A model generated the notes under the pieces. The model did not search any database. It saw only the letters and a program-made list of their open reading frames with translations, and was not told the origin of the DNA. Source: Chamaea fasciata (taxonomy: Eukaryota > Chordata > Aves > Passeriformes > Sylviidae). Taken from it: 64,000 nucleotides of DNA. The position numbers and the translations under genes are program-made. Numbering within the stretch: the first letter of the stretch is position 1; every line of letters starts with the position of its first letter. Positions 12,401 through 58,956 of this stretch are shown here, piece by piece. The DNA is taken from contig JARCOQ010000026.1 of NCBI GenBank assembly GCA_029207755.1, positions 1,423,001-1,487,000 of the forward strand, written 5' to 3'.

Positions 12401-12852
12401 TCTCCGTGCACCAGCAGCAGCACAACTACGCCGCCCGCTCACCTCCAGACTCCTGCCCCCCTCCCGAGTCACCCCAGCAGGACCAGGAGGAGGACGAGCC
12501 ACCCAGCGCTGCGGAGCCTGTCACCCCTGCCGTCACCCTGCCTGAGCCTGCCTTGCCAAAAGCCAGCAGCAGCCCCGGCTCGGACAGCGAGGACGTGGCC
12601 AAGAGGAAAAACCACAATTACCTGGAGCGCAAGAGGCGCAACGACCTGCGCTCGCGTTTCCTGGCCCTGAGGGACCAGGTGCCCGGGCTGGCCAGCTGCC
12701 CCAAGACCCCCAAAGTGGTGATCCTGAGCAAATCCTCCGAGTACCTGCAGTCCCTCATCAGCGCCGAGAGGAGGATGGCAGCAGAGAAGCGGCAGCTGCA
12801 GCTGCGCCAGACCCAGCTGCTCAAAAGGATTGCTCACCTTAAGGGGCACTAG
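9457..12852 (+). CDS. MYCL: MYCL, L-Myc bHLH-zipper transcription factor
   Basis: L-Myc pairs with MAX and binds E-boxes to activate growth genes in the nucleus. Two coding exons, 9457-9961 and 12284-12852, join at a split Glu codon (donor G|GTAAGG, acceptor GCAG|AA) to give 357 residues; human L-Myc is 364. The start is the ATG opening MEFDSYQHYFYD. Myc box I is DIWKKFELVPTPPLSP (residues 29-43), with the Thr38/Ser42 phosphodegron pair. Myc box II is around LKDCMWSGFSARERL (91-105). A nuclear-factor-like acidic stretch (GEEID, then EEDE) follows. The basic region KRKNHNYLERKRRNDLRSR starts at residue 275, followed by helix-loop-helix and zipper to the end (IAHLKGH). The 2.3 kb intron is CpG-rich. 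It is next to TRIT1 on the same strand, as in human. Confidence 0.98.
10848..10945. promoter_or_regulatory. Candidate regulatory element in MYCL intron
   Basis: Within the MYCL intron, a block holds TGAGTCA (AP-1/MAF-type, about 10854-10860), homeodomain-like TTAATGCCATTAG, and an inverted TTAAGAGGCTTAA. These AT-containing motifs stand out in GC-rich surroundings. Function is inferred from motif density only. Confidence 0.3.
11085..11160 (+). promoter_or_regulatory. Promoter-like module inside the MYCL intron
   Basis: Two CCAATGGG boxes on the plus strand (about 11089 and 11130) and a GC box (GGGGGCGGGGCT, about 11146-11157) form a classical CCAAT/GC promoter arrangement between the two MYCL coding exons. 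A TG repeat (about 11188-11207) follows. It could drive a shorter MYCL transcript containing only the bHLH exon, or an unrelated non-coding RNA. No evidence of use is visible. Confidence 0.35.
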
Positions 12853-16079: not shown

Positions 16080-30166
<14,087 letters not shown>

Positions 30167-30596: not shown

Positions 30597-30602
30597 AATA
30601 AA
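30597..30602 (+). terminator. TRIT1: TRIT1 poly(A) signal
   Basis: AATAAA lies 431 nt after the TRIT1 stop codon, preceded by an ATATATATAT/T-rich tract and followed by a GT-rich stretch. The likely 3' end is near 30620. Confidence 0.8.
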
Positions 30603-30624
30603 GTTGCAGGATTATTGTGGGTTC

Positions 30625-33600: not shown

Positions 33601-34655
33601 TCGGGAGCAGCGCAGGGCGTTGGGGAGCCCGTGGCCCATCCGATGCCTTGGCACCATTTCAGGCGGTTGTGGCAAAGCCGAATGTCGCAAGAGCCTAAAA
33701 ATAAAAGGAGCTGTTGGCCGGGGTTGTGCAAGAGCGTGTCCCCGTCCCGCCCCGCGCGGGAGTTCGGAGGATTTGGCGGCAGAGGCGGCCGTGCCCGGCA
33801 GGATCCTGGCGCTGCGCCCAGGAAATGCCAGGATCCGAAGGGCTGGGGGCTGTCCCCCCTCTCTGCTCCCCCCGGGCCACCCTGTGTCTGGGGAGGGGTG
33901 TCCGTGTAGGTTTGGGGACATGGGGGCCGAGCTGGGCTGCAGGTGGGTGGGATGGTGGCACGCTGAGGAATTCCAGAGGGGTGCAGAGCTCGGGGAGCCG
34001 GGGGGGCATTGCCCATGCGCCCACCCAGGGGCCGGTGGGGAAACTGAGGCAGAGCCGGCCAGAGTCGCCTTGCACGAGGCTCTGGGTCTCTGGTGTCACT
34101 TGTGGGGTGCCCATTGTCCCCCCCCGGACACGCAGGGCAGAGGGGGGGTCAGCGGGGCCGCTATCTGCCGTGTGCCAGGCGGGAAAGGTGGCGGGAAGGA
34201 GGGGGCTGGCAGGACACCAAACCCCAGGGGACTTGGCCCCGAGCCACAGCAGCGCAGCCGCGCTGGGGACAGTCCCCTTTGGGGGGGGGGGGTGACACAT
34301 CCCCGGCCGAAGTCCTGCCCTGCCGGGGTCTCCCCCAGCTCGGGGGGCTGCGGGTGGGGCTGCGGGGCCGAGTGTGTGTCGCCGGGGTCGGCCTGGCGCG
34401 GGTGTGGCCGGGGTGGCCGCGTTGTCGCGGTGTCACAGGGCCATCTGCCGGCCAAGGCTCCGGCCCGTGGCGCCCAGCCGCAGCCTCCAGCCGCAGCCCG
34501 GCCCTCCCAGTCTGCAGCTGCACCGGGGAAGGAGGGAGCCCTGGGCGGCACCCCGGCCTGTTGTCCCTCTCGGTCACCGCGGGAGGTGGCATTTATCCCA
34601 CAGGGTGTCACGGTCCCTGGGATGGGACACAGTAGAGACAGCCCCGCTGCGGCCA
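30625..34655. other. Gene-free stretch between TRIT1 and the CYRI-family gene
   Basis: Convergent intergenic space of about 4 kb. In human, OXCT2, BMP8B and PPIE lie between TRIT1 and HPCAL4; I see no cyclophilin (PPIE) or TGF-beta family (BMP8) sequence in any frame here. A motif-dense block at about 32425-32535 is listed separately. A long plus-strand open frame at 33521-34720 is GC-driven and not a credible gene. Confidence 0.6.
32425..32535. promoter_or_regulatory. Candidate enhancer: AT-rich, palindromic motif cluster
   Basis: In otherwise GC-rich sequence, this block packs a 12 bp palindrome CTTTGGCCAAAG (NFI/nuclear-receptor-like), AGATAAGG (GATA-like), TCATTAATTA (homeodomain), GGGATTAG (OTX/CRX-like) and CAATTAAAG within about 110 bp. 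Motif content alone supports it. Confidence 0.3.
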
Positions 34656-34674
34656 CGAACAGATTAAATGTCAT

Positions 34675-34680
34675 TTTATT
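34675..34680 (-). terminator. Poly(A) signal of the CYRI-family gene
   Basis: TTTATT on the plus strand reads AATAAA on the minus strand, about 590 nt after the stop codon at 35266. This gives a compact 3' UTR. A CCT/GGA triplet-rich tract (about 34829-34880) lies inside that UTR. Confidence 0.7.
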
Positions 34681-34828
34681 TCACACACCCCCCCCACCCC
34701 GCCAAAAAAAACAAAAATAAAAAGGTAGAAAAGAAGAGGTGAGTGTGGATTTAATTGCTCATATTAAAAATCTACCAGGTGAGACTGAGCCGTTTCCTCC
34801 AGAGTCAGTGCAGATCCACAGGGATACT

Positions 34829-34880
34829 TCCTCCTCCTCCTTCTCCTCCTCATCCTCTCCCTCCTCCTCCTCCTCCTCCG
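34829..34880. repeat. (TCC)n-rich tract in the CYRI-family 3' UTR
   Basis: About 50 bp of TCC triplets with few interruptions on the plus strand. On the minus-strand mRNA it reads as purine-rich GGA repeats. Confidence 0.9.
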
Positions 34881-35265
34881 CTTGGGGACCAGCATGGGGA
34901 CCGGGCCACCACCTGCCCCCTCCCCAAGGTGCCCCCGTGCCATGGGCACCCTGCTGCCAGCCCCACCAACACTTCCCTTGCCCGGGTCCCTCCTGCCCGG
35001 CCCCGGCCCCCCCGGCGCGGTGCCCCACGGTGCCACCCACACCTCGTGTCCAGGAGCGGGCGCTGATTTTGGGGGTGGGAAAAGGGTCGGGGGGGGGGGC
35101 AGGAGCTCGTGGCGGGGGGGGGGGTCGGCCTGGGGCCGTTTCGGTTTGCTTTTTAGTATTTCTGCGCATTCCTCGCTGTCCCTTTTCCCTCTGTACAAAA
35201 TGAGCTGTATGGTCATGGGCGTCGGTGACACGGTGACACGCGCGGCTCCGGCGGCCGCCCCGCGC

Positions 35266-38200
35266 TCACTGCAGCAGGGCCCGGATCTGTTTGGACGTCG
35301 TGTCATCGTTGAGGTGCCGAGTGGTGTACCTGGACGGGGAGGGGACACGGGTCACACTCTGCCGTCACCCCTGGGTGCTGCCAGGGGACGCCACGTCCCC
35401 GCTGTGTCCCCAAGCCCCCGTCTCACCTCAGAGCGTTCAGGAGCCCCTCGGTGCTGGTTGAGGGTTGGTCTTTCAAGACTTTAATGCAGCCTTTCATCTG
35501 ATGGAGGCAAAGAGAGGGACTGTGAGCTCCCCGAGGGGGCTGTCCCCCTTCCTCCCCATCCTCATCCTCGCTGCTCAAGCCAGGGAGAGGGACCCCGGCG
35601 ATCACAGCTCCTGGGACGAGTGGCACGGCCTGCGACCCCACAGCTGTGACCCCACGTTGACTCACATCGATCTTGGAGGTCTTGGCGAAGGCCCCCACGG
35701 GGTGGACGTGGTCGTAGAGGATGATGACGCCCACCATCACCCTCATGCAGAAGAGCAGGGTCTCGGTGTTGGTGAAGCGGCTCCGGTACTCCCTGTGCCA
35801 GGAAGAGAGGCTGCCTGAGCCCGGGCAGGGTGGCAGAGGGACCCCAGGGCTGGGATGTCCTCCCAAAGCCCGGCGTGGGGTACTCACGGGGTCTCCAGCA
35901 TCACCCTGCACACACAGGCCATGGTGCTCAGGCAGTCGGTCGTGTCCTCGATCGGGAGGGTCTTGTTCTGAAACCCAGCAGGTCCCAGCTGCTGTTTCCA
36001 GCCCCAGCCCCACGTGCGGGTGGCTGGAGGGGATCTCTGCCCGCCCTGAGGGTCTCCCCCAGCCTCCCTCACCTCTGAAACGAACTTGGTGGTGGCGTTG
36101 CTGAGGGTTTTCAGCATGGGGGTGGCCTCGGCGTAGAAGAGGGACATCCTGTTGGCCATCTCGTTGTTCACCTCGCTCTCTGCATCCAGCTGGGGGGGGG
36201 GTGGTGTGATGGGGGTCACTGGGGTGGCCGAGCCCCCCCGGGCCATTCCCAGCCCTGTGAACCCCTGGGGAACAGCAGAGCCCTCTCACCTGCAGGTTGT
36301 TGATGCGATTCCGGCTGATGGTCCGTCTGTAGTAGCTGAAGTCGTTCTGGATGGCGGGGTTGGTCATCTGAGGGGGGAGACACCAGGGTTAGGGGTCCCA
36401 AGGGGCTCTGCTGGCTCACAGGGTGTGGGGGACTCCCCTCGTTGTCCCCCCCGGCACAGGGAGGCACCTTGAGCTCATCGAAGCTGAGGGTGAAGTGCAG
36501 GATCTCAGCGAACTGCTTGGCCAGGGCTTGCTCCCGCTCCAGGTGTTGGGTCGGGGCGTAGGGAGGGCTGGTGAGCGCCTCCAGCAGGCTCCGCAGGGCG
36601 TTCTCTGCGGACAGAGCACTCCCGGTCCCCCTCCGCACCTCCACACCCCCCTCCCGAGGGGAAACCGAGGCACAGCTCAGCGTCCCGAGCTGAGCACACA
36701 CTCCAGGGAAGGGCGCGGGATGCACGGCGGGGGATGCAGCGGGGGAGCTCAGGCACTCACCCAGCCGCAGGGAGAACTCGTAGAAGCGTTTCAGCTTGGC
36801 GACCAAGGGGCACACGGCGCTCCAGGCGCGCTCCTGCAGCCGCAGGTCCCCGGGGTTTTGGATGGCCTGCGAGGGGAGAGCGCCAGCGGTCGCCCCGAGC
36901 CGCGGTGGGTGGGCGGGCGGGCGGGCGGGGGGCGCCGGGGCTTGCACCCACCTCTCGGATCTCCTGCCCGGCGCCCGTGTAGGACTGCAGCTCGGCCAGG
37001 ATGGTCTGCGCCTCCTCCAGCACGGCGTTCACCTGGTTCCACACCGCCGTCTCGGCCTCCGTCGGCTGCGCATCTGCAGGGCAGCGCCCCGGGGAGAGAA
37101 ACCCGGAGGGCTCTGAGCGGGGCCCGGCGCGGCGAGAGCCAGAGCGGGGTGCCAGCACCCCATGCCACGGCTCCCCCGCCGGCCCGCAGCCCTTCCTGGC
37201 GGGATTCTCCCCCTGATCCGTTCTCCTTGCCCGAGCTCAAGTCAAGCCGTGGAGCGGGGAGGGCAGGTGGGGGTGACTCCTGGCTGCCCTGTGACCGCGG
37301 TCCTGCTCACCGCGAGCGGTCCCCGAGCAGCCCTCGGCCCCAAGGAGCTGCGAAGTGCCCCGGGGGAGAGGTGAGGAGCGACAGCCCCCGGCCACGGGTC
37401 TGGCCCCCCCCTCCCCGGGGACACCCCCGGATGGCAAAGGTGGCGGGAGGACGTCTGGGATGGGCGCGATGCGATGGCGACGGGGACAAAGAACTCAAAA
37501 TGGTGTGTGGATGTGGAACTCAGGATAAGGACGAAACGAAAACGGAAAATAAAAATCCCATCTCACTTTCAAAGTCAAGGAAAAAATTAGGGCCTTGGTC
37601 AAGTTCGTTATAAGTCAACACTTTTAGAAGGTTCCCCATGTGAAACCTGCAAGAGAAGAAACAAGAGGAAAAAAAGCATGATGGTGAGGTGGAGCCCGGG
37701 GAAGAGGTGCTGGGCTGTGGGCAGCGGCGGCGGCCGGAGCCCCGTCCCCCCCCCGCTGCTCCCCGGGGGGCTCGGGGGGCTCCGGGGGTGACCCCGCGGC
37801 TGCTCCCGGCCCCGGGTGTGCAGCCTCTTCCCCCCCGATGGTGATGAGCGCTGGCGGATGCGGTGATGGACAGGGAGGAGCGAAGGGAGGAGAAGCCGCC
37901 GGGAGGTCCCTGAAGTCCCCGGAGTGTCGGCTACAGCCAAACCCCAACTTTAGTGCGGAGCCAGCCCCGAAATGAGGGGTCCTGGCGAACACCCAGAACC
38001 TGTGCCGGGGGGCTGTGGAGGGGGGCTGGAGGCAGGAAAATTCGTGCTGCCTGAGAGGAGCCAGGAGGAGCAGGAAGGTCCCTCGCCGTGGGAGTGGGGG
38101 GCTGTGTGACCCCAGCCCCGGGTATTTCGGGGGGTGCCGGAGTCAGGGGGGGCGCGGGGAGCTGTGCACGGCCTGTCCCCGCTGGGGATGGGACTGGGGC

Positions 38201-38917
38201 GAGCAGATGCCGCTGGACTCTTTTCACCCTCCTCGCACTCGCTCTGTCTGAGCTGTGCCCTGGGAGGAATGGCGGGAGGGAGAGCCAGAGGAGCCCTGGG
38301 GCTGTGCCCGGCCTGGCATCCTGTCACCGTGTCCTGTGCCCTCCGTGTCCATCCCGGGGCGAGAGCTGTCCTTTCCTGTCCTTTAGATCCGTGGGAAAGC
38401 TGAGGCACGTCCCCGCTCCCCATCGCTTGCTGCAGGCTGCGGCCACCGCACTGACCTTCCCAGCAGTGCAGGTGGTGGCACGGATCATTCCCTCCTCCTT
38501 TCCCAGCCTCCAGGCTGTCCCTGTCCTGGCCGTGTCACGGGACGTGCCACACGGCCACCGCTGCCATCGGCTGACGGCAGTGGGTGTGTGCCTGAGGTGG
38601 TCCCGGGCCGGGTCCTGCGGCATCCTGCATCCCACCACTCAGCCAGGACGTCTGCCCCACTCTTTGAGGGATGGGGGCATCTCCCGGGGGTCCCCTGCCC
38701 CATTTTTGAGATTTTTCAGGGCCCCCCAAGGCACCTGGGGGACACGGGGCTGCTCGGGGACAACGTGCTTGTCCCCATCCTCTGGACGGCAGCCGCGGTG
38801 GCAAGCCCTGGCGCCCTCCCCATGCCCACCCTGCTCATGGAACTTACTTTCAAAATCCAGGAAAAAATGAGGACAGTTTTCTAAATCTTTGCCCAATACC
38901 TTTATCAGGTTGCCCAT
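35266..38917 (-). CDS. Third CYRI (FAM49) family gene, CYFIP-related Rac1 interactor
   Basis: CYRI proteins are N-myristoylated, bind active Rac1 and restrain the SCAR/WAVE complex at the leading edge. Coding exons, minus strand: 38848-38917 (1a), 36952-37073, 36761-36866, 36468-36604, 36290-36367, 36073-36189, 35888-35967, 35666-35792, 35427-35497 and 35266-35329. They give 323 residues, the length of human CYRIA. Gly2 is in MGNL (myristoylation). Hallmarks are [86 protein letters not shown] and [10 protein letters not shown]. The Rac1-binding arginine pair is R159/R160. Several residues ([22 protein letters not shown]) are closer to CYRIA, but the gene beside MYCL is neither CYRIA (beside MYCN) nor CYRIB (near MYC). 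An alternative first coding exon (1b) is at 37567-37639. Confidence 0.95.
37567..37646 (-). CDS. Alternative first coding exon (1b) of the CYRI-family gene
   Basis: An ATG at 37639 opens [20 protein letters not shown] and ends with FLDFE plus one base (donor GAAA|GTGAGA), the same phase as exon 1a. The exon has its own acceptor (CTTGCAG|GTTTCAC, exon from 37646). It therefore splices onto the common exon 2 to give 324 residues, the length of human CYRIB. Its '[11 protein letters not shown]' looks CYRIB-like, whereas exon 1a ('[12 protein letters not shown]') looks CYRIA-like. Joining 1a to 1b would read into a stop within eight codons, so the two must be used one at a time. Confidence 0.9.
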
Positions 38918-39305
38918 GGCCAGCAGACCTGAGCGAGAGAAACAGAACAGAGTGGAACAGCACCGGTGCCACCGGCCGGACACCCCAAATGCCACCCCCG
39001 GGCCCCCAAGTGCCACCACCATGGCACCGCCCTGTGCCCACCCCGCTCCCTCCTGGGGCACCCCTGGCCATGCTGCCACCCCTGAGACACCCCAGTCCCC
39101 CAGTCCTGGTGTCCCCAAGGGATGGGGGGCTGCCCCAGGTGACCCCCACGGCGCCATGCCATTCCCCTGGGCTGTGGGGCTGGGCATTCCCCATGGACAG
39201 GGGAAGGCCCCAAGCGGGAATTGTGCCCCACAAACCCGGGTTGGGGGTCTGGAGCCCGCGCCAGAGCATCCCACCCACCCCACAGCCGTGCCCTGGGGTC
39301 CTTAC

Positions 39306-39390
39306 CTCAGCGCCTGGTGTGGCAGTGGTGGCTAGGGCAGGAGCAGGGGCTGTGCCACCCGCCTGGGTCACTTCATGGGCCGGCAGGGAC
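39306..39390 (-). other. Candidate 5' UTR exon of the CYRI-family gene
   Basis: On the minus strand an acceptor-like CCTGCCCACAG precedes 39390 and a good donor GAG|GTAAGG follows 39306, enclosing 85 nt without a long frame. It contains a three-codon upstream ORF (ATG AAG TGA at 39376-39368). It is plausible as a leader exon upstream of exon 1a, but no transcript is available. Confidence 0.4.
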
Positions 39391-40209
39391 CTGTGGGCAG
39401 GGGGGCAGGAGGGTCAGGGCGCCCCACTGGGCACCTCCCTGCCCTGGGGACCCGTGGGGAAGCACGGTGGGACACTGGCTCTGCCCCTCCACCTCACGCT
39501 GCCACCAGCCTTCACCTCATTTACCTCGATCATTTTTTATTGCCACCAGGAGAGCTCACCGGGCTGAGCATCCCCGTCCCTCTCCACCCTTTGTGGGACC
39601 TGCCAGCAGCTCGGGGACAACCCCAGAGCGGAGCCATCTGTCCCCATCTCCCCTTGGAGAGGCCAAGGCCCCCAGGGATGACTTTGCCGGCTCTTTCCCG
39701 GGCGCTGTCTGAAGGTCCCTTTATGCCGCCGGTGAGCCACAACCCAAAATCCTGCAGGCAATGGGGTGCTCCCCCAGATCCCCGCACCCCACCTTTCCTA
39801 CAGGGACGTGGGGGGGGGTCGGGGTTGGCCCCGTGGTGTCAGCAGGCGCCAGGAAGCAGCCGCGGGACTCAGCAGGTTGTAATTAAGCGCTTGGGTTTAA
39901 TTAATGAGGCTGGGGAAGGGGAGAGGGAGAGTTGGAGCGGCAGGGGGGAGGGATGGGGTGGTCTCGTGCCTGGAATGGGGCTGTGCCCCCCCCGGCCCAG
40001 CGCTCCTCACTCAGCCCCAGCACAGACCCTTGGCATCAACACTGATGGCTCTGCCTTCCTCCTCTTCCTCCTCTTCCTCCTCCCGGCCCCAGTGAGTGCT
40101 GGCTTTACGCTGGGGCTGCAAGAGCCTGAAATGCAGCTGGTTTTTGGGGCAATACACCAAATACACCCAGAGCTGCTGCAGTCACGCCGAGGTTCATCCT
40201 GCTGAGCAC

Positions 40210-40291
40210 TGGGGTGTTTTGAAAGGGTGCTGGGGGGGTCCCTGGGATGCTGGGGGGGTCCCTGGGGTGCTGGGGGGGGTCCCTGGGGTGG
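40210..40291. repeat. Short G-rich tandem repeat
   Basis: About three to four copies of a 20 bp unit like TGCTGGGGGGGTCCCTGGGG. It lies in the 5' region (long first introns) of the CYRI-family gene. Confidence 0.8.
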
Positions 40292-41945
40292 GAGATTGGC
40301 ACCTGCCCTGCTCTGGTACTGGCACACAGGCTGTGACCGGCGTGGGGACATCCTCGTGCCCGCGCCACCCTTGTCCTTGATGGGCAGCTCGGGGCTGGGA
40401 TTTGTCACTGCTGAACTCTGCCTGTGCCCAGGGAAGGGCCACGGGTGGGTGCCCGGTGTGACGACACCCCGGGGTGACTCCAGAGCTGTGGCACAGGGGT
40501 TGGGTGCCAGGTGGGGGTTTGGGGATTGCTGCAGCCCCCTGGGCTGGAGGGTGGCTCCGCTTGGGGTTCAGCCCCTGTTTTGTGCCATTTCCTTGGTCCC
40601 AGAGGCTTAAAACCCCCCCCGTGGCTCTTGGGGGGGCCACGGGACATCCCTCCCGGGGGGGTTGTGCCCAGGGCGAGGGGCTTCCCCCAGTGCAGGCTGC
40701 CCACCGCTGAACTGGGGGAACGGTGTGCCCCAAATCCTCCGGGAGAGACACCTCCAAACCGGCAGCGCTCCCAGAGGAACGTGCCGCCACAGGAGGGCTG
40801 GGAACAGCAGGCTCCCCGTCCCCAGCCACACCCGAGGTGGCCCCGGCTTCTGTCCCTCCCTGCGGTGGCCCCGTTGCACCCCAGCCCTGCCCTCTCTTGC
40901 CGCACCGCCGCCTCTCCTGCCCCATGGGGACCCACGGCGGGTGTCACCTCCCTGGGGACACCCCAGCCGATGGGGTGAACCCCCACTCCTGCTCCGGGCA
41001 GGACCAAATCCTGCATCCAGGAGCATCCCTCCCGCGAGCCGGCAGTGCCCGGGCTGGCCACGCCGGAGGGGCAGCGATGCCCGCGGGCTCAGGCCACCCG
41101 GTGTCACCGTTTCGGGGCTGTGCCCCTTCGCTGCCGGCGCAGCATCGCCCTGGGCACCGCAGCCTGGTGCAGCGCCGCAGCCCGGGCCGGGGGCTGCCCG
41201 CCCCTTCCCCCCGAGCTGGCCCCGCTCCCCGCAGCCCCCGGCCCGCCGGGTGCCCGCCGGGTGCCCCCCGGGTGCCCCCCAGCCGCCGCCGAGCCCCCCT
41301 TGCCGCTGCCCCCCGCCCATGGCCGCGCCGCCGGCGCCGCAGCCGCCGCAGGGTCGGGAGCGCGGTGCCTGAAGGATTTTCCATGGGGGAGCGCGGCTCA
41401 TCCCGGGAATGGGGGCGCCGGGGCCAGATCCCAGCCCAGGATCAGCCGGGGCACCCCCAGCCCTGAGCAGGGTGGAGTTGGGGGTTTCTCAGCGCGGTGA
41501 CCCCCCCCGCCCCCGGTTTGGAGATCTCCGTGGTCGGAGAGATGTGTGAGCCCCCCATGGGGCTGACCCGCCCCTCGAGCGGGGCCGGGGGGCTCAGGGG
41601 GCTCCGCCGTGCCCGGCTGCGGCTGCGGCTGAGCAGCCGGATTTACCGCAGGGCTGCCGAGCCGCAGCACCCCGCCGGCGCGGGCGGGCACCCACCCGTG
41701 CGCCCGCACCCAGCCGGGGCCACCGCGGGGCTGCAGCCAGCCCCAGCCGGGGCCGACCCACCCCAACCATCGCCCACCCCATCAGCGCCCACCCCAGCAC
41801 CCCCCAGCGCCGGGTGCCGAGAGGAGAGAGGGGCTCCTCTGCCAGGGGTGGCTTGCGGGGTCCCCGGGGGACACAGCCAGCCCCTCGCCCCGCTCCCAGG
41901 CCCGGTGGCAGCCCTGTCCCCGTGCCCGTGGCGGCCCGCGCTCAC

Positions 41946-42145
41946 CGTGGCGGTGGGTGGGAGCCCGCGGCGTGGGCAGGCGGCGGCGGCGGCGGCCGGG
42001 AGGCTGCGGATGCTGCCGAGCGCGGGGTGTCGGGGACGAGCCGCCCGCCGTGTGCGTGAGCCGCCCTGCGCCAGCTGCCGAATGCACCACAAAGACCACC
42101 ATAGCCCCCCGGCCCCCCCCACGCCACTGGTGACGGTGACGTCTC
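41946..42145 (-). promoter_or_regulatory. Candidate promoter and first leader exon of the CYRI-family gene
   Basis: The region 41000-42145 is a CpG island. On the minus strand there is a strong donor CACG|GTGAGC (exon end 41946), and near the likely start a CRE-like TGACGTC (42137-42143). The start position is inferred. Confidence 0.4.
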
Positions 42146-44520
42146 AAGTGTGAGGGAGACGGGGAGGCTTAACCCCCTGCGCGCCGGCCGGCAGAGCTCT
42201 GCGGCCTTGGAGGGGAGAGGGGTCCGGCTGCTGCTCCCCGGGTTTGGGGGACACGGGGACATCGAGAGGGTACCTCCACCCCCGCAGCTCCCAGCAAAGG
42301 GGAGAGAAAACCCAAATATTCCCAAATATTCCTTCGCTCCTGCCCCAGTCCATGGGTGGCACGGCTTGCCCCGGTCCCCTCTCCGGGGATGGGGACAAGC
42401 ACCGGCCCCGCCTGGTGCCACCGCAGCGGGGACAAACCGGACCCGCGTGCCGGGACCGCCGTTTTGGGCAGGCAGCACCCTCTGTGCCTCATCAGCTCCC
42501 CCAGGACCGGGGCAGAAGGGGTTTGGGTGGCACGAACCAGCGCAGAGCCGTTCCCGCAGGGCTGATGTCAGAGGAAGGGAACCCCAAAAGGGGACCCCAA
42601 AATTGGGCTATTCCTGCTTTTCTACCCTGACTGCCCCCTTTTCCCAGGCCTGACAGTGGGGGCATCAAGAGGGACCCCCCGATTTAAGGGTCACCCCAGG
42701 TCCAGCTTGCCCAGTGGCACGCAGAGCTGTCCCTCAGGGACGTGGGGTGGGTGACAACGGCTCCTCGTTCCTTTACAGGTGTTTTTGTGCTGGGGGGGGG
42801 GGTCACAGAGGGGCTGGCTGAGCCCCCAGTGCCCCGAGCAGTGACAGTGTCACAGCTGGGTGACCCGGCAGGGCAGTGGGACCAGAGCTGTCGGGATTCT
42901 GGGACCAGCAGCGATGACTCCTGCTCCCCACAGCCCCCCGCAGTCTGTGGGGCGCTGACCCGGCCGCAGCAGCCCCAGGCAGGGGGGATCTCTCCCATCG
43001 GGCACAGCCCCCCGGGCCGTGCTGCTGCAGCCCGTAGCCGCTGGGGGAAGCTGCAGCCCTTTGCATTCCTTGGAGCCGCTGGAGAGGGAGGTTTTTTAGG
43101 AATCAGCAGCGCCCCGGCAGCTCCGCGCCCCGGGGCTTGGTGTTGGGGGGATGCTGCTGCAGGAGTGGCGAGGGCAAAGCTGCCGCGGAGCCAGCGCTGC
43201 CTGCTCAGCGGTGTCCCCCCCCAGGCACACCCTGTTGTCCCCTCTGCAAACCCGGGGCCAATGTCCCGTTCGAACCTGGGCTCACACAGGATTTGAGGCG
43301 CTGGGCTCAGCTGGGTGTTCCAGCGGGTGCTCCAGTGGGTGCTCAGCCCTCCACGACCCCCAGACATCACCCCAGCACCACGACTTGGGGTGCCAGAGCC
43401 CCCAAAAGGACACGTCAGGACCACACGGTCACCCCAGTCGTCATCTCAAGGGCATCCCTGTCACCTGGCACTTCCCCACCTCTTCCAGTCCCCCCCTTAT
43501 CCCTTCGGCACCCCCTCCCCGTGAGCTGAGCCGGGCCGGCCTCAGCCCTGGCAGCCCGTGCCGCTTCAATTAAGCCCTCATTAATTTTTCAGTCCCCCTG
43601 AGCACCCCGGGCACGGGCGGTTGGCAGAGCTGCTAATTGGTGTCTTCTTCTCCACTCCGCATCCAAGAACCGCCAGCAGGGCCGGGGGGGGCTCATCCCA
43701 CCCCCCCCCCCCCCAGCTCTCGGGGACGCTCACGGAGAGGCTTTGGGGCCACACTGAGCCACGTCCCGTGCCCGGCAGAGGCTGTGGAGGTGACCCCAAA
43801 TCCCTGGGGGGGTTGTTCCAGGTGGGGTCCAGCCCTGGCACGAGGATGTCCAGCCGAGGGGGAGTCCCAGCCCTCCTGCCCCCAGGGCGGGTGAAGCCCT
43901 TCAGCCCCACTGCTGCAAATATTTGTGGGTTTTGTAACCCGGCCCTGTCTCACCTGCAGCTGGGGTGGGCCCTGCAGGCACCCCTGCAGCAAGGGTGGGT
44001 GCACACCAGGGCAGGGGCCTTGGAGAAGGGCTGAGCACCCCATGGAACCCCACAGCCCCACCGGGGATGGGGTGGGATGGGACAGGATGGGGAGCAGGCC
44101 TGGCTGGCCGGGGACTTCATCCAGGCTCAGCGGCCACCAGCCACACAGGGCCAGCTGTGGAAGGGCCCAGGTGGCACCGGGATCACAGCAGGACGCCAAG
44201 GTCACCGGGAAAAGCGCTCGGCGATCTCCATGGAAACATTCCACGTTTGGTCCCGGACATCAAAGTGATTTTCTTGTCCCTCTCTCCTCTGTGCTTCAGC
44301 CGTGCCTCTGCCAAGCCACCGGTGCGTCCCAGTGTCCCCAGTGCAGGCAGTGAGGGGCCAGCACCCCCGGGATCCCAGTGCCGACACCCCCCCCCCGCAT
44401 CCCGCTCCCCGCATCCCACCTCCAGCATCCCCCAGCCCCGCGCTCGCAGCATCCCGGCCCCATTTCCCCTCCCAGCATCCCAGTCCCCCCCAGTATCCCA
44501 CCTCGACCCCCACCCCGCCG
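42146..44520. other. Intergenic, between divergent CYRI-family gene and HPCAL4
   Basis: No gene is recognised in any frame. The stretch is GC-rich with several G- and C-runs (for example 42790-42801 and 43697-43711). Confidence 0.6.
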
Positions 44521-44550
44521 CCCCTCCCGCTTGATTGTCAGCGCTCGCAG

Positions 44551-46303: not shown

Positions 46304-47244
46304 ATGGGCAAGCACAGCAGCAAGCTGGCCCCGGAGATGCTGGATGACCTGGTGAGGAGCACGGAGTTCAGCGAGCAGGAGCTGAAGCAGTGGTACAAGG
46401 GCTTCCTCAAGGACTGCCCCACCGGCATCCTCAACCTGGAGGAGTTCCAGCAGCTCTACATCAAGGTGGGCTCCAGCTGGGCGGGGTCTGAGTGCTGCCT
46501 GGAGGGCTGGAGAGCCTCAGGTGCAGCCTCCAGGCCGAGCTCCCCCTCCTCATCTCAATTCCTCTTCTCTCTTTCCCGCAGTTTTTCCCCTACGGAGACG
46601 CCTCCAAGTTTGCCCAGCACGCTTTCCGCACCTTTGACAAGAATGGGGACGGCACCATCGACTTCAGGGAGTTCATCTGTGCCCTGTCTGTCACCTCCAG
46701 GGGCACCTTCGAGCAGAAACTCAACTGGGCCTTCGAGATGTACGACCTGGACGGGGACGGGAAGATCACGCGCCTGGAGATGCTGGAGATCATTGAGGTA
46801 CCGGCGATTCAAACGGGCAGAGTTTGTTTTGCTTTCTCCAGGCTTTTCGTAGATATTGGGTCCCTCTTAGCACCAAAGAATGAGTTTTCCTACCCAGAGC
46901 CTTGTCTGAGAGGTGCTTGATGTGGACCTGATAGAAATGGGTCCTAAAAGAGCAGCAACCCTGTCCCTGTCCCTGTCCCCTGCCTTGTCCTGGGGTCTTG
47001 CGTCCTTCCAACATCCCCTCTCATTCCCACTCTCATCCTTCTCCAGGCCATTTACAAGATGGTGGGGACTGTGATCATGATGAGGATGAACCAGGACGGG
47101 CTGACGCCCCAGCAGCGAGTGGACAAGATCTTCACAAAGATGGACAAGGACAAGGACGACCAGATCTCCCTGGAGGAGTTCAAGGAGGCCGCCAAGAGCG
47201 ACCCCTCCATTGTCCTGCTCCTGCAGTGCGACATGCAAAAATAG
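46304..47244 (+). CDS. HPCAL4: HPCAL4, hippocalcin-like protein 4 (visinin-like protein 2)
   Basis: Neuronal calcium sensor with a calcium-myristoyl switch. Three coding exons (46304-46465, 46582-46797, 47047-47244) all join between codons and give 191 residues, the same as human. The start is the first ATG after the acceptor; it opens MGKHSSKL, where Gly2 is the myristoylation site (human has MGKTNSKL). EF-hand 1 is the usual non-binding form (KDCPTGILN, about 36-44). EF2 is [14 protein letters not shown]3 [12 protein letters not shown] and EF4 [12 protein letters not shown]. The C-terminus [12 protein letters not shown] is identical to the family. HPCAL4 is told from HPCAL1 and VSNL1 mainly by position and overall match. 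AATAAA at 48222-48227 marks the 3' end. Confidence 0.96.
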
Positions 47245-50216: not shown

Positions 50217-53200
50217 ATGGAGCCGCCGGGCCCCGCCGGAGCTCCGGGGCGACCCTGGGATGAAGCCAAGGCTTTCTACGACAACCTCGCCCCCAAGAAG
50301 AAGCCCAAATCGGTGAGAAGCCCCCGAGGAGCCGCTCAGCGCTCCCCGCCGCGGGGGGACGCAGCCCTCGCCCCATCTCCTGCGGGTGCCCCGGGGCTCT
50401 GCAGGTTCTCCCATCTCCTGCAAGGTTCTCCTGGGTGTCTCATCCTCTCTGGATTCCCCCATGGAACACCCCCCGCCCCGGGTGTTTGTGGGTGCCCCAT
50501 CTCCTCCAGCCTCTCTGGGGTCTCTCCTGGTCCCCCATTTCCTCCACGTGTTTTGGGGTCCCCGCCTGAGTCTCTCCGTGTTCCCTGTCTCCTCCAGGCT
50601 CCGTGGGATCCCCTCGTGATGTCTTCTGGTGTTTCTTTGACCCCTTTGCCTCCGTCCAGGTCCTTGGGGATGCCCTGGCTCCCTCACCCGCTCCTTCATG
50701 GCATCCCTGGGTTACCCTTGGTTCCCTGGGGTCTCTGTGGGTTCCTGGGGGTCCCCGTGGTGCTCCTGGCTCCCCGCTGGGCTGAGGTGTCCTTGCAGAG
50801 TGGCCCGATGCCCCAAGAGCTGCCAGGCCCGGGGGACAGCCCAGGAGCTGTCACCGGGGTGTAGCTGTCCCTGCCAGGCTCGCCCGCTCTGGGAGATTAC
50901 CGGGAGAAGCCTGTGTTATCTAACGGGGCCTGAGCCTGCCGCCTTGAAACACGGGAAGCGCCTGGAAGTGGAAGTATCCCGGAATAGCAGCGGGAGAGCG
51001 GGGCTGGCAGCCCGGCAGGGCTGGGGGCTGTGCCCGGGCCGGGCTGGCCCTGCCCTGCAGCCTCTGAGCCCCCCGGACACAGCCACGGCCACCCTCGGGG
51101 CTGTGGCACCCCCCAAACCTGAGCTCTGGCAGGGGCGCTGCCCGCGGCGAGGGACCGGGCGACAGCTGGCAAAGCTCTGTGTGTCACCGCTCCACCGGGG
51201 GACAGGTCCAGGCCCTCACTTGGGGCAGCCCTTGTGCTTTCCCTGCCGCCACCCCCGGGCCTGCACCCGCTGCCAGCTCACGCTGCTGCCGCCTGTGCCC
51301 TTGGCAGAGGGGAGGGACAGCGGGGCTCGGTGGCGGGATGCAGCCACTTGTCTTTCATGCCATGCTTCGCTCATGGATGTCGGCCCGGGCTCCTCCTCTT
51401 CCTCTCCTCGCTGCTGACCCATCCCTGCTGTACCACTGGGGAAACTGAGGCACGGGGGCAGCCATGTGCTTCCACCGCTCTCTGTGGGGCTGGGGGTGAC
51501 ACCAGGGGCTGTGCCACCGCTCTCCGTGGGGCTGGGGGTGACACCAGGGGCTGTGCCACCGCTCTCTGTGGGGCTGGGGGTGACACCAGGGGCTGTGCCA
51601 CCGCTCTCTGTGGGGCTGGGGGTGACACCAGGGGCTGTGCCACCGCTCTCCGTGGGGCTGGGGGTGACACCAGGGGCTGTGCCACCGCTCTCTGTGGGGC
51701 TGGGGGTGACACCAGGGGCTGTGCCACCGCTCTCCGTGGGGCTGGGGGTGACACCAGGGGCTGTGCCCCTCTTGTGGGGCTGGGGATGACACCAGGAGCT
51801 GTGCCCCTCTTGTGGGGCAGGCTGGGGGCCCTGTGCCTGCCGGCAGCCAGCTCAGCTGCCCTCACCCAGCCAGGCAGCTGCCAGCCCGTGATGGATGGTT
51901 GCAAGGCGCTTTTCTGCAGTATAAATAATGTTCCTGGAAATCTCCAAACCACCCTGGCCACCGCCCTGAACTTTAATCCGATCCCGAGCAGGGGGCTCGT
52001 GGTGCTCCCTGAGGAAATGGGGTTTGGTGTCGTCTGTCTGCGCCCTTGGGGGTGCTGGGTCTGTCTGTCCTGGCCAGGCAGGAGCAGGAGAGAGCTGTGA
52101 GGCGACAGGAGAAAAGGGGGATTTTGGGGATGGGTTTTTGGCTGGAGAATGGGTTAGTGGGACATTCCTGCTTTGCAGCGGTCCGAGCTCTTCCCAGGCT
52201 GCTCCAGCTCCTGCCAGGGAGGTCAGCGATGAGACCTGTCACCCTTCAGCAATGCTGGAAATGTCCCCCAGCCTGTCTGGTGACGCCGGGTGGGGTCAGT
52301 GGGAGCTGGTTTTCTGCCGGCTCCCTTCCTCTGGGCACCCTGCTCGTCCCCTTTGGGACCCACCCGTTCCTTGTGCCTGATTTTTGGGATGCTGTAGCTG
52401 GAGTGGGGACAATGCTTGGCCCTGGAGCAAACCCTTCCTTTTCTGTGACCAAAATCCACCTCCGAATATTGAATTAATCGCAAGGATTTGATCCTCTGCA
52501 GCAATCCAGGGAAGTGCCCGGGGCTGCCAGAATTCCCACAGGGTTTTAGGATGGAGTTGGGTCCAGCCCCAGGCAGCCCAAAAGGATCAAGGGGTGCAGA
52601 ATGAGGTCCCCACTGTGGCTGCAGCCGGTGGTGGCCTCCAGGGGTGGCAGTGAAGCTCCTGGGGTTGGTGGCACTGCGGGCACCTGTGGTTGGGTTGTCC
52701 CACTGCACGTCCCTGTGGGATTTCCAAATGTCTGCCTCTAATCCTTTGGGGGGCTGCTTAGGGTTTACATCCGATTAGAGCAGCCATTTAAAGGCTGCCA
52801 GCTGTTGGATCCGCAGGGAGAAACTCGGGCTGTTCCCAGTCACTCCTGAAACACACCTTTGCCCCAAAACTGCGGGGTTTGGGGTCCGGGATGGGGTTTG
52901 CACTTAGAGGAGCTGGAGCCTGCTGGAAAGGTCTTTTTACACTTCTGAGGTGAGGTTTGGACCGCGTGGACCTCCTGGAGCTGTGCCAAGGGCTGATGTT
53001 CCTCTTCAGAGGGCTGGGCTGTCGGGACATGTCCCTGGTTGTCCCTCCTGTTTGGCTGACCCCTGGGATGGGCCCAGGATTGGGGTGGGACCTTCCCCCA
53101 CCCTGTTCATACTCCTCTTAGACCCGTCATTAACCTCCTGCTCGAGGTTCGGGAGGGGGCTGGACCTGACCTTCCCGTGGGGAGGGAGAGGAGCTCACCA

Positions 53201-56200
53201 TGAATCCCCAGGCAGCAAATTCAGTCGGATTCGGCCGAGCAGAGCCTGGACTTGTGTTGGATGAGCTTTCACTGACCTTGGCTGACCTTGGGTGCTTCTC
53301 TGAGGGCAAAACAGAGTTTGTGATTCAGCCCAAACCCTCCAGGGCTCCAGAGCAGGAGGCTGTGGTGGGATGGGGGCTGTGGGGCCAGGACTGGGAGTGG
53401 GACCCCTCCCATGCACAAAAGGAGAGTGTTTGCCTTGAAACATGACAATTTCTGGGGAAAAGCGGGCTCGGGTGGCTTGTTTGCAGCACTCGGACGGAGG
53501 ATTTGAGGTGCTGTGGTTCCCGAGGCTTTCTAAAGCTCATTTTTTGAACGTCGTAATGACCATCTGCAGCACTAATGGGGACGGAGAGGCATCCAAACAA
53601 CCTTGAGGAGGGAACGCTTCCAAATGAAACCTCCACTTGAAAGAAATGTCAAAATGCAGATCCCTCCTTGCAGCGCAGAATCGCCTCGTTTTCCAAATGT
53701 CAGCGTTTCCCAGAGAACAGCAGGGCTCTTCCAGCCCAGCCGGGGCTGGGAGCTGCCTCAGCACCCGGGTGAGACTTTCCTGCCCCCGAGTGCTCCACAA
53801 AAGGTGCAAATTTTCCTCGGCAGGATCCGGCAGGTCCCATTCCCAGAGGCTCCCTGCCCGCAGGCACCTGGGGCTCCAGCAGCCCACGCTGGGGCACAGT
53901 CGGGCCTGGAGCTGAGGGTTATTTTTATTGCTGCGTTTATTGCCTCTTAAATGAACCTCCCGGAGGGGTTGGTGCCTTTCAGAGGCGGGGAAGGGACCTT
54001 GAGCAGCCGGGGCTGTTGCGCAAGGTGCCCAAGGTGTGTGCCAGGGGGAAGAGGGAGATGGAAATTCCCTCTGGGCTTGGCTTGTGGCCCCAAACATCCT
54101 TCTCACCCCCTTGAACACGCCTCGGTGCTGTGACATCTGGGCTGCTGACCTGTTTTCTCTCCTGGGAACCTCCTTCCAGGGCTGACCCCGGTCCAGGATC
54201 AGGGAGCAAACACCTGGAAGGTTTCCTTGTACCCGGCGCTGCAGGGACTCGGCAGCAGGATGGAGCAGCAGGACTCCAGCTAATGGCCGGATGCCCCAAG
54301 ACCTTTCAGAGTTATTAATATTTTCAGCTGATAAATGGCCCATGACACCAGAGTTATTAATTAATGAGCTGAAGTGCCAAGGCTTGGCCCGTGACCAGTT
54401 AATTGCTGACACTCCTTGGGGACCTGGCTGTGCTTCACCTGGAGCGGTGCTGGTGTCGTGGATCCAGGTCCTGCCTGTCCTGGGGGTTGTTCCCTTGCTT
54501 TCCTAAAAGAGCCACTTCCCCACGGGATCTGATTCCCCAGGAAATGCTGTGGGGAAAGGGATCCCTGTGGCAGCAGTGATCTTCTCAGCCCGAGCTAATC
54601 TGGGTCTCGTCCTAATCGCCCGCTGTTTCATCGCTTTGCTGGGGATTTAGGGGATTTTGGGGACGGACGCAGCCTTTGGAGAGGCGCCTGGGACGGACCT
54701 GCAGCGGGGCTGGTGCTGGGAATTGCCTCTGGAGGCTCCCACTGACTCACCCTTGGGTGCGGCTGGGAGCAGAGCGAGCCCAGCCCTGCGGGGAGCGAAC
54801 CCCGGTGTGGATGGGCCACCTCGGCCTTGCCAGGCTGCTGCTCCTGGAGAGTTCAGCCCTGGGCACGGTGGGAGCTTGAACTTTGGAGCAGCTGGGTGTG
54901 CGGAGCAGCTGGAGGAGGCGGCCTCCACCCTGGGCAAATGGCACTGCCAGAGGATTACTCGTGGATAACACGGCATAACAGGGGATCCTGGAAGTCACAG
55001 AGGAGCAGGGGGTGAGGTGTTCCCGCAGTGCTGACAGCCCCAGGATTTCTCAGAGATCCCCCCAAGCCCTGTCCTGCTGGCTGGACTCCTCTGTAGGGGA
55101 CAGGGCTCCCTGTCCCTCTGTAGGACTCGCTGTCCTGGCAGCCAGGATTTCTCACTGGCCGTGGGTAATTAAGTTATTTTTGTGCTTGCGAGTGAGTGAT
55201 GGGGATTAACACCCTCCCTGCCCTGCAAGGGGAGACAGGGAGGACGGCCGGGGGTCAGGATGAGCTTGACTTTCCCCCTGTCCCCTCTGTCCCTGCCAAG
55301 TCCCTCTGGAGGCGCCTCGTCGGCTTCAGCTGGAGGAGGTTTGGGATTCGGGTTTTGGACCGAGCCCTCCGACGTTAATAACAATGACTCATAAATCGTT
55401 GCTTGCACCACCTGTTTGTCATGTTTCCACCCACAATAACTGTATCAAGTGTTTGTGGGAGCTGAGCTGGCACGGGCTGCGTGTCACATCTGGACGGCAT
55501 CACGGGATGCGGATCTGGCTCAGCCGCAGAGCGCGGCGCTTTCATGGCTGGGGTGGGGGGGAGCGTGCTGGGAAAAGCCACGCAAATTCCTTCTGCATGG
55601 GCTCCAGCGCTTCCCCCTGGGGTCTGCACGGCTTCTGGGAGCCTGTCTGCAGCGGGAGGGCTTGGCAGTGGGATCTGAGGTGTCCCAAATGTGTGGGGAC
55701 GCAGCGTCAGGGCTTCATCCGTCGAAGCGCTGGCGTGCAGCCGCTCCGTTGTTCCCCGGATCGTTTCAGAGCTGTCGCCCACCTCGTGGCCCGTCGTGCT
55801 GGGGGTGAGCAGATGCCAGCCCAGGCTGGGAGCAGGGGGCTGCCTCCCTGATTTGCCCCCTCTGCCCGCACAGCCCAAGCCCGAGAACGCCATCACCATC
55901 GCGGTGTCCTCGCGGGCGCTGTTCCGCATGGAGGAGGAGCAGAAGATCTACACGGAGCAGGGCGTGGAGGCCTACGTGAAATACCAGCTGGACCACGAGA
56001 ACGAGCCCTTCCTGCCCGGGGCCGCCTTCCCCTTCGTCAAGGTGAGCGGCCACGGCGCCCTGCTCCCCAAAAATTTTGGGGAGAGGGCAGGGGTCATGTG
56101 GGGCCAGGATGGACACGAGCAGTGGGGCAGGAGGGATGGAGCCACGGAGCAAACAGAGGGCGGATGAAGCTCCCAGCAAGTGATGTGCTGCTTCCAGGGC

Positions 56201-58956
56201 TGGATTTTCCATCTTGAGCCCAAGAATTGAGCAAATCATTCTTCTTGGATCACATCTAAAGTTTCCCTTTAGGGAATAGTCTTTTTTTTTTTTTAAATTA
56301 CGGTTATTATTACAATTTATTTATTTATTCTTGTAAATTGGCTGAGTTTAGCCTTGCTCTCGAGTCGGCCAGTTTCTAATCCTGACGTGTTGAAGCGAGG
56401 CACTTCAAATTTGAAAAAATATTTTCTAACTCCTGTAGCAGTTAGTGCAGCTTTGGGTGCTGGAGCCCGTTCCCAGTGAATAAATAAATTAACCAGCTCT
56501 GTGGGGCCAGACTTGTTTCCGATTGCTTGAAAAACACTTTTCTGTAACTTGGAGCCAACTTATCCTCATTTGATATCTCCAAACCCTTTGTGTTTGAAAA
56601 CAGAAGAGCAGCTAGGTGGATTTTTTTTCTCCCCCAAAAACGAATCTATTTTTTCCCAGCCGATGTCAGCTTGGCTTGGGGTGTAGTTGAGGTGGAGACT
56701 TTGGTGACCAGGAGTGTTTTTTTGATGGGAAGGAGGTCAGGACATCAGCTGGGGCTGGCCAGATTTGTGGATTTGGTGACCAGGAGTGTTTTGTTGATGG
56801 GAAGGAGGTCAGGACATCAGCTGGAGCTGGCCAGACTTGTGGATTTGGTGACCAGGAGTGTTTTGTTGATGGGAAGGAGGTCAGGACATCAACTGGAGCT
56901 GGCCAGATTTGTGGATTTGGTGACCAGGAGTGTTTTGTTGATGGGAAGGGGTGAGGACCACACCTGGGGCTGGCCAGACTTGTGGATTTGGTGACCAGGA
57001 GAGTTTTGTTGATGGGAAGGAGGTCAGGACATCAGCTGAGGCTGGCCAGACTTGTGGATTTGGTGACCAGGAGTGTTTTGTTGATGGGAAGGAGGTCAGG
57101 ACATCAACTGGGGCTGGTCAGATTTGTGGATTTGGTGACCAGGAGTGTTTTGCTGGGTGGGAGGGGAGGTCAGGGCCGCGCCTGGGGGGGCCTGGCTGAC
57201 ACCCACCCCTCTCCCCGGGGTGCTGCAGGCTCTGGAGGCAGTGAACGCTCAGCTCCGTGAGCTCTACCCCGACAGCGAGGAGCTCTTCGACATCGTCCTC
57301 ATGACCAACAACCACGCCCAGGTTGGGGTTCGCTTGATCAACAGCATCAACCACTACGGTGAGATTGGGGACAGAGCTGCCCTTTGGTGGCTTTTGGGTG
57401 CTGTCATTGCCCGGCACCAAGAAAAGGAGATGTTTTCTCCCATTTTCTCCCAGATTTTCTCCCAGATTTTCTCCCAGATTTTCTCCCAGATTTTCTCCCA
57501 GATTTTCTGGGTGTTGGGCAGGAACTGGCTGGTGGGGAGGGGCTCTGGCTGCTGGCCCCGCAGAACCAAAATTAACCCCGGTCCTTCCAGCAGCAATGCT
57601 GGGTTTGGGGGGCAGCCAGGCTCACCCCAGGGTCCCTCCTGCCCTCAGATCTGTTCATTGAGAGGTTCTGCATGACGGGAGGGAACAGCCCCATCTGTTA
57701 CCTCAAGGCCTATCACACCAACCTCTACCTCTCCTCCGACGCCGAGAAAGTGAGTGGGGCCATTGAAGAGGGTGAGTCTGGGGTCCAGCTCAGGGGGGGC
57801 AGCGGGGGGAGCCTGGAGCCCTCAGGGGGTTGATCCCAGGAAGGAAAACTCCAATATCCACATCCCTAAGCCGACACTCACTCAAGGTTTGCCTTGCCCC
57901 GCATCACCTGATGCTCCAAAGAGCCTCCAGTTTCCATAGAAATGAGCCTTTCCTGCAGCTCCGCGGCTCTCCCGAGGCGAAGGCGGTGTTTTTTCCCTCT
58001 CCTTAACTCTCGTATGCAAAGGCTGTTTTGTCATCTGGGGGTTTGTTTTTGCCGTGGGAGCTCTCGGGGGGGCCCAAGCTGCAGGTGCTCCCCGGGCGCG
58101 TTTCCCCTCGCGGCCTTTCGCTCCCAGCCCCGTCGCGTTTTCGCTCTGCCCCACGAGGACGGATCCTTGGATGACTGCCACCTCTTGCCTCGCCCTCAGG
58201 GATCGCTGCAGCCACCATCTTCAGCCCCAGCAGGGACCTGGAGGTGTCGGAGAAGCAGCTGCGGGTGGCGTTCGACGGGGACGCCGTGCTCTTCTCGGAC
58301 GAGTCGGAGCAGATCGTGAAGGCTCACGGGCTGGACATGTTCTTTGAGCACGAGAAGGCTCACGAGAACAAGCCCCTGGCACAGGTAGAGCTGGGCTGAA
58401 GGCAGGAGAAGGCTCTGGGAGAGACGCAGCCCCTCATGGGATCAAGCCAGGGTGAGGGGCGAGGTGGGGTAGGAGCTGCTGGCCCGGGGGACGGCTTTGG
58501 GGTCATTTTTGGGGTGTGTGGCTCACAAGGTGAAGGGATGGTGACAGCGAGGTGGCGACTGGAAGGGTGACAGGTTTCTTCTCACCCCACCAGGGCCCCC
58601 TGAAGGGCTTCCTGGAGGCTCTGGGCAAGCTGCAGAAGAAGTTCTACTCCAAGGGGCTGAGGCTGGAGTGTCCCATCCGCACGTACCTGGTGACGGCGCG
58701 GAGCGCGGCCAGCTCGGGAGCCCGGGCCCTAAAGACTCTGCGCAGCTGGGGCCTGGAGACGGACGAGGCTCTGTTCCTGGCCGGGGCTCCCAAGGGTCCT
58801 CTGCTCAGGAAGATCAGGCCCCACATCTTCTTCGACGACCAGATGTTCCACGTGGAGGGAGCGCAGGAGATGGGCGCCGTGGCCGCTCACGTCCCCTACG
58901 GCGTGGCCCAGAAGCACAAGAAGCAGGACAAGCAGCAGAGCCCCAACAGCAAATAA
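50217..58956 (+). CDS. NT5C1A: NT5C1A, cytosolic 5'-nucleotidase IA
   Basis: Cleaves AMP to adenosine in the cytosol, mainly in skeletal and heart muscle. Six coding exons (50217-50312, 55874-56041, 57229-57358, 57649-57771, 58200-58384, 58594-58956) give 354 residues; human has 368, with a longer N-terminus. The start ATG opens [18 protein letters not shown]. Family marks are [65 protein letters not shown], and the acidic motif [15 protein letters not shown] with D198 and D200. The C-terminal half has [54 protein letters not shown] and [11 protein letters not shown]. The tail [14 protein letters not shown] is more basic than in human. Intron 1 (5.6 kb) holds a 42 bp minisatellite, intron 2 a 72 bp minisatellite and intron 3 a 12 bp one. 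Confidence 0.97.
51472..51830. repeat. 42 bp minisatellite in NT5C1A intron 1
   Basis: Seven full units of exactly 42 bp start at 51472, 51514, 51556, 51598, 51640, 51682 and 51724. Two shortened copies follow (to about 51830). Units differ mainly at one base (CTCTCTGTGG or CTCTCCGTGG). Because 42 is 14 codons, long open frames cross the array on both strands; they are repeat artefacts. Confidence 0.97.
54307..54390. promoter_or_regulatory. Candidate enhancer with duplicated CAGAGTTATTAAT
   Basis: CAGAGTTATTAAT occurs twice (54307-54319 and 54349-54361), 42 bp apart. The second copy runs into TTAATTAATGAG. These are homeodomain-type motifs in NT5C1A intron 1. Function is inferred only. Confidence 0.3.
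55372..55450. promoter_or_regulatory. Candidate enhancer near NT5C1A exon 2
   Basis: A cluster holds TTAATAACAATGACTCAT (SOX-like ACAAT and AP-1/MAF TGACTCA), an E-box CACCTG, and CCACAAT. It is about 430 bp before exon 2. The E-box would suit a muscle gene, but this is motif reading only. Confidence 0.25.
56700..57190. repeat. 72 bp minisatellite in NT5C1A intron 2
   Basis: Units begin TTTGGTGACCAGGAGTG at 56700, 56772, 56844, 56916, 56987, 57059 and 57131. The period is 72 bp, with one 71 bp unit that is also the most diverged. The array ends about 40 bp before the acceptor of exon 3. Being 24 codons long, the unit creates open frames on the plus strand that are not genes. Confidence 0.96.
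57433..57511 (+). repeat. 12 bp repeat resembling serial splice acceptors, NT5C1A intron 3
   Basis: ATTTTCTCCCAG is repeated with an exact 12 bp period; CAG ends fall at 57453, 57465, 57477, 57489 and 57501, with degenerate copies at both sides. Each unit is a pyrimidine tract followed by CAG. The true acceptor of exon 4 is at 57648. Confidence 0.95.

Follow-up and report, generated by a model that had tools for sequence, protein, structure and literature searches.

The 64,000-nucleotide stretch of Chamaea fasciata DNA analysed here (contig JARCOQ010000026.1; hereafter the window) carries an intact minus-strand CYRI (FAM49) gene whose protein falls in a clade separate from both CYRIA and CYRIB. 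We label this third CYRI paralogue, which lies beside MYCL, CYRI-C. Our preferred reading, to which we give a probability of about 0.85, is that CYRI-C is a third vertebrate CYRI gene that most likely works like CYRI-A and CYRI-B, and one of three duplicates that arose before the living jawed vertebrates diverged, most likely in the two rounds of vertebrate genome duplication (2R), each near a MYC gene: MYC with CYRIB, MYCN with CYRIA and MYCL with CYRI-C. It is well supported as a gene and as a clade; its function we infer from residues. In the text available, CYRI papers, PMC6682259 among them, describe a pair of proteins, whether for mammals or for many species. Literature searches, judged by titles and the starts of abstracts, weak in two cases that covered 20 of 528 and 20 of 259 papers, and with subscription papers mostly outside their coverage, turned up no paper that seemed to describe a third. 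CYRI-C entries in the databases carry CYRIA-like or FAM49A-like names, a plain "A" name in Gallus (P0006) and Cuculus (P0012), and "FAM49B" in others. These names hide CYRI-C as a third paralogue and invite its confusion with CYRIA. Fish, frog or chicken work that assumes two CYRI genes could miss a third one masking knockouts.

Gene model, phylogeny and spread

The gene runs on the minus strand from an ATG at 38917 to a stop codon that ends at 35266. Its ten coding exons (972 nt, 323 aa) have no internal stops, and all introns are GT-AG. The sequence-only reading of this DNA had described an intact minus-strand CYRI protein, and its coordinates are matched exactly. GC content is 0.87 at third codon positions, 0.55 at first and 0.39 at second. 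The Pfam domain PF07159 (CYRIA/CYRIB Rac1 binding domain) matches residues 18-319 of the protein at 477 bits (E 2.4e-143; cut-off 23.1). CYRI-B constructs of solved structure, from whale shark (E 2.4e-173) and human (E 5.2e-173), align with it over the full length. The features of the gene are as follows.

38848..38917, minus strand: coding exon 1B; 3' splice site ctcgctcag 11 nt upstream of the ATG
37567..37639, minus strand: alternative coding exon 1A; 3' splice site tcttgcag 7 nt upstream of the ATG
36952..37073, minus strand: coding exon 2; acceptor ctgcag, donor gtgggt
36761..36866, minus strand: coding exon 3, from the gene model
36468..36604, minus strand: coding exon 4; carries Ser140
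36290..36367, minus strand: coding exon 5; carries the Rac1-binding arginine pair R159-R160 (CYRI-B R160-R161)
36073..36189, minus strand: coding exon 6, from the gene model
35888..35967, minus strand: coding exon 7, from the gene model
35666..35792, minus strand: coding exon 8, from the gene model
35427..35497, minus strand: coding exon 9, from the gene model
35266..35329, minus strand: coding exon 10 and stop codon, from the gene model
34675..34680, minus strand: possible polyadenylation signal AATAAA, by pattern only

Protein searches with the window protein, a wombat protein and an invertebrate-like protein found 1920, 1914 and 1733 proteins, respectively. The best 120 of each, pooled, comprise 240 different proteins (the matches listed), which are representatives of 90% identity clusters whose other members are hidden. 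The closest to the window protein among them is P0001 (Passeriformes), at 100% identity. By best score against references, which is the only assignment made for proteins outside the trees, the matches listed divide into 109 CYRI-C, 14 CYRI-A, 61 CYRI-B, 55 invertebrate-like and 1 lamprey.

For trees and identities, first-exon residues were excluded so that exon choice could not mislead, and a 299-residue core was used. Tree 1 has 43 rows, the window included, and is rooted on 7 invertebrate rows (x_Grus and x_Rhynochetos were left out of 44 trimmed rows). Tree 2 has 47 rows and amphioxus as sole outgroup, with six of the seven invertebrate rows dropped and ten other rows added. CYRI-C forms a single clade apart from CYRIA and CYRIB in tree 1 (support 100/97). 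Its members are birds, reptiles, frogs, ray-finned fish, a wombat and two cartilaginous fish, Pristiophorus (P0119) and Callorhinchus (P0124), the last two in both trees. Within the clade, the sawshark and then the elephant-shark (80/23) are basal, teleosts stand apart from tetrapods, and the wombat lies among the tetrapods. The clade returns at 100/97 in tree 2, where 100% of 200 bootstrap trees separate each of A, B and C from all other rows by a single branch. Such a tree had been proposed as a check on the sequence-only reading, and the window protein sits in its own clade, not nested in bird CYRIA or CYRIB. These results indicate an ancient duplicate, about as old as jawed vertebrates and compatible with 2R, and not a bird copy. 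The CYRI-C clade (100/97) also speaks against placing the window with CYRIB alone.

The wombat protein (P0018) has 95.0% core identity to the window, with its absent end scored as different. Differences particular to it make bird contamination appear unlikely. Placental species are absent from the 108 named CYRI-C entries among the matches listed (a further entry has no name), as against 24 of 61 for B and 6 of 14 for A by hand count; with B entries mostly from a different query than C, and with cluster members hidden, these counts are suggestive and not proof. Human gene tables of 1p34 around MYCL give HEYL, NT5C1A, HPCAL4, PPIE, BMP8, OXCT2, TRIT1 and others (PMC2362006, PMC3617176). No FAM49 gene appears in these tables as far as they are accessible, in line with the earlier statement that mammals have no CYRI gene at 1p34, and no relic was sought at the locus. 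The accompanying proposal, that the gene was kept in birds and lost in mammals, is too broad and is not supported as worded. CYRI-C is also found in reptiles, frogs and ray-finned and cartilaginous fish, and the wombat protein rules out loss in all mammals; a mammalian orthologue located elsewhere, which had been named as evidence against the proposal, is thus in part shown by this protein. Absence fits placentals only, and placental mammals may have lost CYRI-C. If so, the placental two-gene CYRI system would be a reduced set after loss of a third brake on Rac1.

MYC linkage and origin

Neighbouring genes in the window were located by tblastn with probe sequences.

12607..12849, plus strand: MYCL bHLH-zipper exon; 75% identity to the probe, E 2e-33
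16384..27298, plus strand: TRIT1 (match span)
46304..47241, plus strand: HPCAL4
50256..58911, plus strand: NT5C1A (match span)

TRIT1 and HPCAL4 flank CYRI-C, which is some 22 kb from MYCL, and the order bears out the earlier placement of a CYRI gene beside MYCL, with HPCAL4 and NT5C1A. The sequence-only reading put NT5C1B close to MYCN (2p24) and HPCAL1 on 2p25, and NT5C1 and HPCAL may belong to the same duplicated block. Human FAM49A is reported to adjoin MYCN at 2p24.3 (PMC4766096), and FAM49B to lie in 8q24.21, the band of MYC (PMC7865353, PMC4228273), which supports the positions that the sequence-only reading had given for CYRIA and CYRIB. With human CYRIA by MYCN, human CYRIB in the MYC band and CYRI-C by MYCL in the window, a CYRI gene accompanies every one of these three MYC genes. 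The bird sequences carrying the genes are 6.2 Mb (chicken CYRI-C), 149.9 Mb (chicken B) and 126.5 Mb (crowned-crane A), sizes that fit different chromosomes; falcon CYRI-C, however, is on sequences of 121-122 Mb, so size by itself does not prove it.

Several results weigh against this account. The linkage of MYCL and CYRI-C was read in one window only. Sister pairing of A with B (p-AU 0.12) or of B with C (p-AU 0.16) is not rejected, and support for A with C is 93/85 with the lamprey included (tree 1) and 75/10 without it. The lamprey row itself can join A, B or C with little difference in fit (p-AU 0.46, 0.33 and 0.37). By core identity to the window, elephant-shark CYRI-A (85.3%) ranks above the cartilaginous CYRI-C rows (82.9% and 80.6%). 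Evidence for the CYRI-C clade comes from the tree model and a small number of fixed residues. The wombat protein, the sole marsupial record, has a divergent C-terminal tail and groups beside frogs with weak support (80/74). As to the protein working like its relatives, three of the seven dimer-contact positions compared (165, 166, 168, 169, 320, 321, 324) differ from human CYRI-B, with Asn at 166, Arg at 320 and Ala at 321 in the window, differences common to most A rows.

Alternatively, CYRI-C could stem from an ancient duplication of one gene or of a segment, predating jawed vertebrates and separate from 2R, with the position by MYCL partly an accident. This would be consistent with the single window of linkage and with trees that do not fix how A, B, C and lamprey branched. 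We think it unlikely, since a CYRI gene near MYCN, another in the MYC band and a third by MYCL make three of three MYC genes. It is very improbable that CYRI-C is a retrocopy or an intact-looking silent relic. Introns and the open reading frame exclude a retrocopy or broken gene. A relic is hard to reconcile with identities over the 299-residue core of 98.0% (chicken) and 92.3-93.0% (four teleost rows). It also sits badly with the Myiozetetes model P0051, in which the part read through from the intron before exon 2 is 64% identical to the window and the exon part 100% identical over 93% of the query. Because the intron has diverged where the exon has not, the coding sequence appears to be under constraint. 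The gene is presumably expressed. A recent bird copy of CYRIA, scarcely credible, would suit the "CYRIA", "CYRIA-like" and "FAM49A-like" names mentioned above, but the window grouped with A alone is rejected (p-AU 8e-122), as is a grouping of bony-vertebrate C with A that leaves out the cartilaginous rows (p-AU 0.0012), CYRI-C has members in ray-finned and cartilaginous fish, and bird A rows (Aquila in tree 1, Balearica also in tree 2) group with A.

Rac1 interface and likely function

Yelland et al. reported binding of CYRI-B to active Rac1 at the switch-I loop, through an interface shared with CYFIP (PMC7955166). The window protein matches CYRI-B at all 12 positions that we took from that paper as lying in or close to the Rac1 interface (R64, Q68, P150, Q153, N154, S157, R160, R161, N185, S188, L189 and A192). 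They are also unchanged in the 13 other bony and 2 cartilaginous CYRI-C rows. The arginine pair and the myristoylation glycine, previously noted as kept, are present as R159-R160 in the 323-aa form and Gly2. The same paper, in the text available, gives M147N as a CYRI-A difference; every aligned row here has Met at that position. From these residues the window CYRI-C protein is predicted to be active.

Compared with its paralogues, CYRI-C shares with CYRI-A the same domain, the 12 interface positions, both first-exon types described below and 79.9-85.3% core identity (7 A rows). CYRI-A differs in belonging to a separate clade, in adjoining MYCN in human and in having Arg and Glu or Asp where CYRI-C has Ser140 and Thr246. 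Human CYRI-B has 81.6% core identity to the window and its solved-structure relatives align full length, although CYRI-B too is a separate clade and lies in the MYC band in human. According to Kaplan et al., positions 73 and 109 distinguish CYRI-A from CYRI-B. At position 73 the window has Leu, where CYRI-B has Glu or Asp; at 109 it has Glu, as in CYRI-A.

Ten alignment columns separate the 14 bony CYRI-C rows from all aligned A and B rows. Ser140 and Thr246 stand out most among them, being found in the window and in the 13 other bony and 2 cartilaginous CYRI-C rows, and in no CYRI-A (7), CYRI-B (12), lamprey (1) or invertebrate (7) row. Position 140 is Arg or Lys in all of the latter. The residue aligned with CYRI-B Met147, which touches Rac1 through its main chain (PMC7955166), follows Ser140 by six residues. 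Because a basic residue has been replaced near this contact, it is possible that Ser140 alters Rac1 binding.

CYRI-A acts at ruffles and macropinocytic cups (PMC8236918), and by analogy CYRI-C is likely a third Rac1 brake at the same sites. The protein would be myristoylated and helical, would bind GTP-Rac1 via its PF07159 domain and, so bound, would keep GTP-Rac1 away from CYFIP, a subunit of the Scar/WAVE complex, thereby limiting branched actin. A broader and quite tentative proposal is that jawed vertebrates inherited three CYRI brakes, one per MYC gene and all with the same, still older pair of alternative first exons encoding myristoylated N-termini. CYRI-C would then have been separately tuned by the change from an ancestral basic residue to Ser140, kept from sharks to birds and affecting Rac1 affinity or dimer formation, before placentals lost it and were left with a reduced, two-gene system.

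First exons, probable promoter and surrounding region

Exon 1A (37639-37567), overlooked in the sequence-only reading, enters exon 2 in the same phase as 1B and gives a product of 324 aa. Exons 1B and 1A would thus supply alternative N-termini. Both begin MGN and so carry Gly2, the predicted site of myristoylation. Because a pyrimidine-rich 3' splice site lies just 5' of each ATG, each has the look of an internal exon joined by splicing to a leader further upstream. With 1B and 1A together in one transcript, the frame from the 1B ATG terminates after 30 residues, so that this ATG yields a full protein only if 1A is skipped. Ostrich (P0024) and Anolis (P0029) models seem to contain both exons, with 1B in another frame.

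Both types recur across the family. Among the 240 matches listed, the N-terminus pattern was recognised in 84 of 109 CYRI-C, 14 of 14 A and 32 of 61 B proteins, in the 1 lamprey protein and in 0 of 55 invertebrate-like proteins, and is thus uninformative on invertebrate first exons. When the recognised CYRI-C N-termini are grouped by hand, type 1B accounts for 49 and type 1A for 35; the exact 23 residues of window 1B occur in 47 of the 84, and the exact 24 residues of window 1A in 29. Chlamydotis, Ascaphus and Sphenodon each have CYRI-C entries of both types. The counts for types 1B and 1A are 11 and 3 of 14 in CYRI-A and 10 and 22 of 32 in CYRI-B, and the lone lamprey row has a 1B-like start. 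Because A, B and C proteins all show both types, the exon pair is most simply, and probably, older than their split. GFP insertion points are given as the 16th residue (proline) of CYRI-A and the 17th residue (proline) of CYRI-B (PMC8236918). Because these fit the 1B type for A and the 1A type for B, the published comparison of GFP-tagged A and B may have varied paralogue and N-terminus together, so that the two may be confounded.

Two upstream segments are candidates for the leader.

42019..42102, minus strand: probable first exon of the leader, or at minimum the coding-like part of that exon; matches 28 N-terminal residues of P0002 and P0017, 96%
39306..39390, minus strand: possible leader exon; acceptor cccacag, donor gtaagg

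The 42102-42019 match is the same, at 96%, for P0002 (Harpia), in which the leader is joined to 1B, and P0017 (Aptenodytes), in which it is joined to 1A. The other segment has a match at 39390-39325 to residues 46-70 of P0006, a Gallus model (60%, E 7e-4). A CpG-rich stretch at 41001-42500 (GC 0.70-0.80, CpG observed/expected 0.69-0.72) encloses the 42102-42019 match and is the probable CYRI-C promoter. Some bird models, P0051, P0053 and P0057 among others, begin within the intron before exon 2 (37072-37450), with no MGN start. Proteins starting there would have no Gly2 and could not be myristoylated at it; such models could reflect either genuine alternative starts or errors of prediction.

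The window yielded no matches when scanned for Rfam families (at gathering thresholds) and for tRNAs, and none of the 12 rows of a tandem-repeat scan of 27000-46500 bears on CYRI-C. On chicken chromosome 23, HPCAL4, TRIT1 and MYCL are reported within about 30 kb, under a selective sweep common to domestic chickens and red junglefowl (PMC6062655). The word FAM49 does not occur in the main text of that paper as available; if chicken gene order is that of the window, a CYRI gene lies inside the swept stretch, which corresponds to 12607-47241 here. At the other end of the window, the start of the NT5C1A probe gives a 19-residue match at 50256, about 5.5 kb ahead of the next match (50256-55865), which suggests a long intron.

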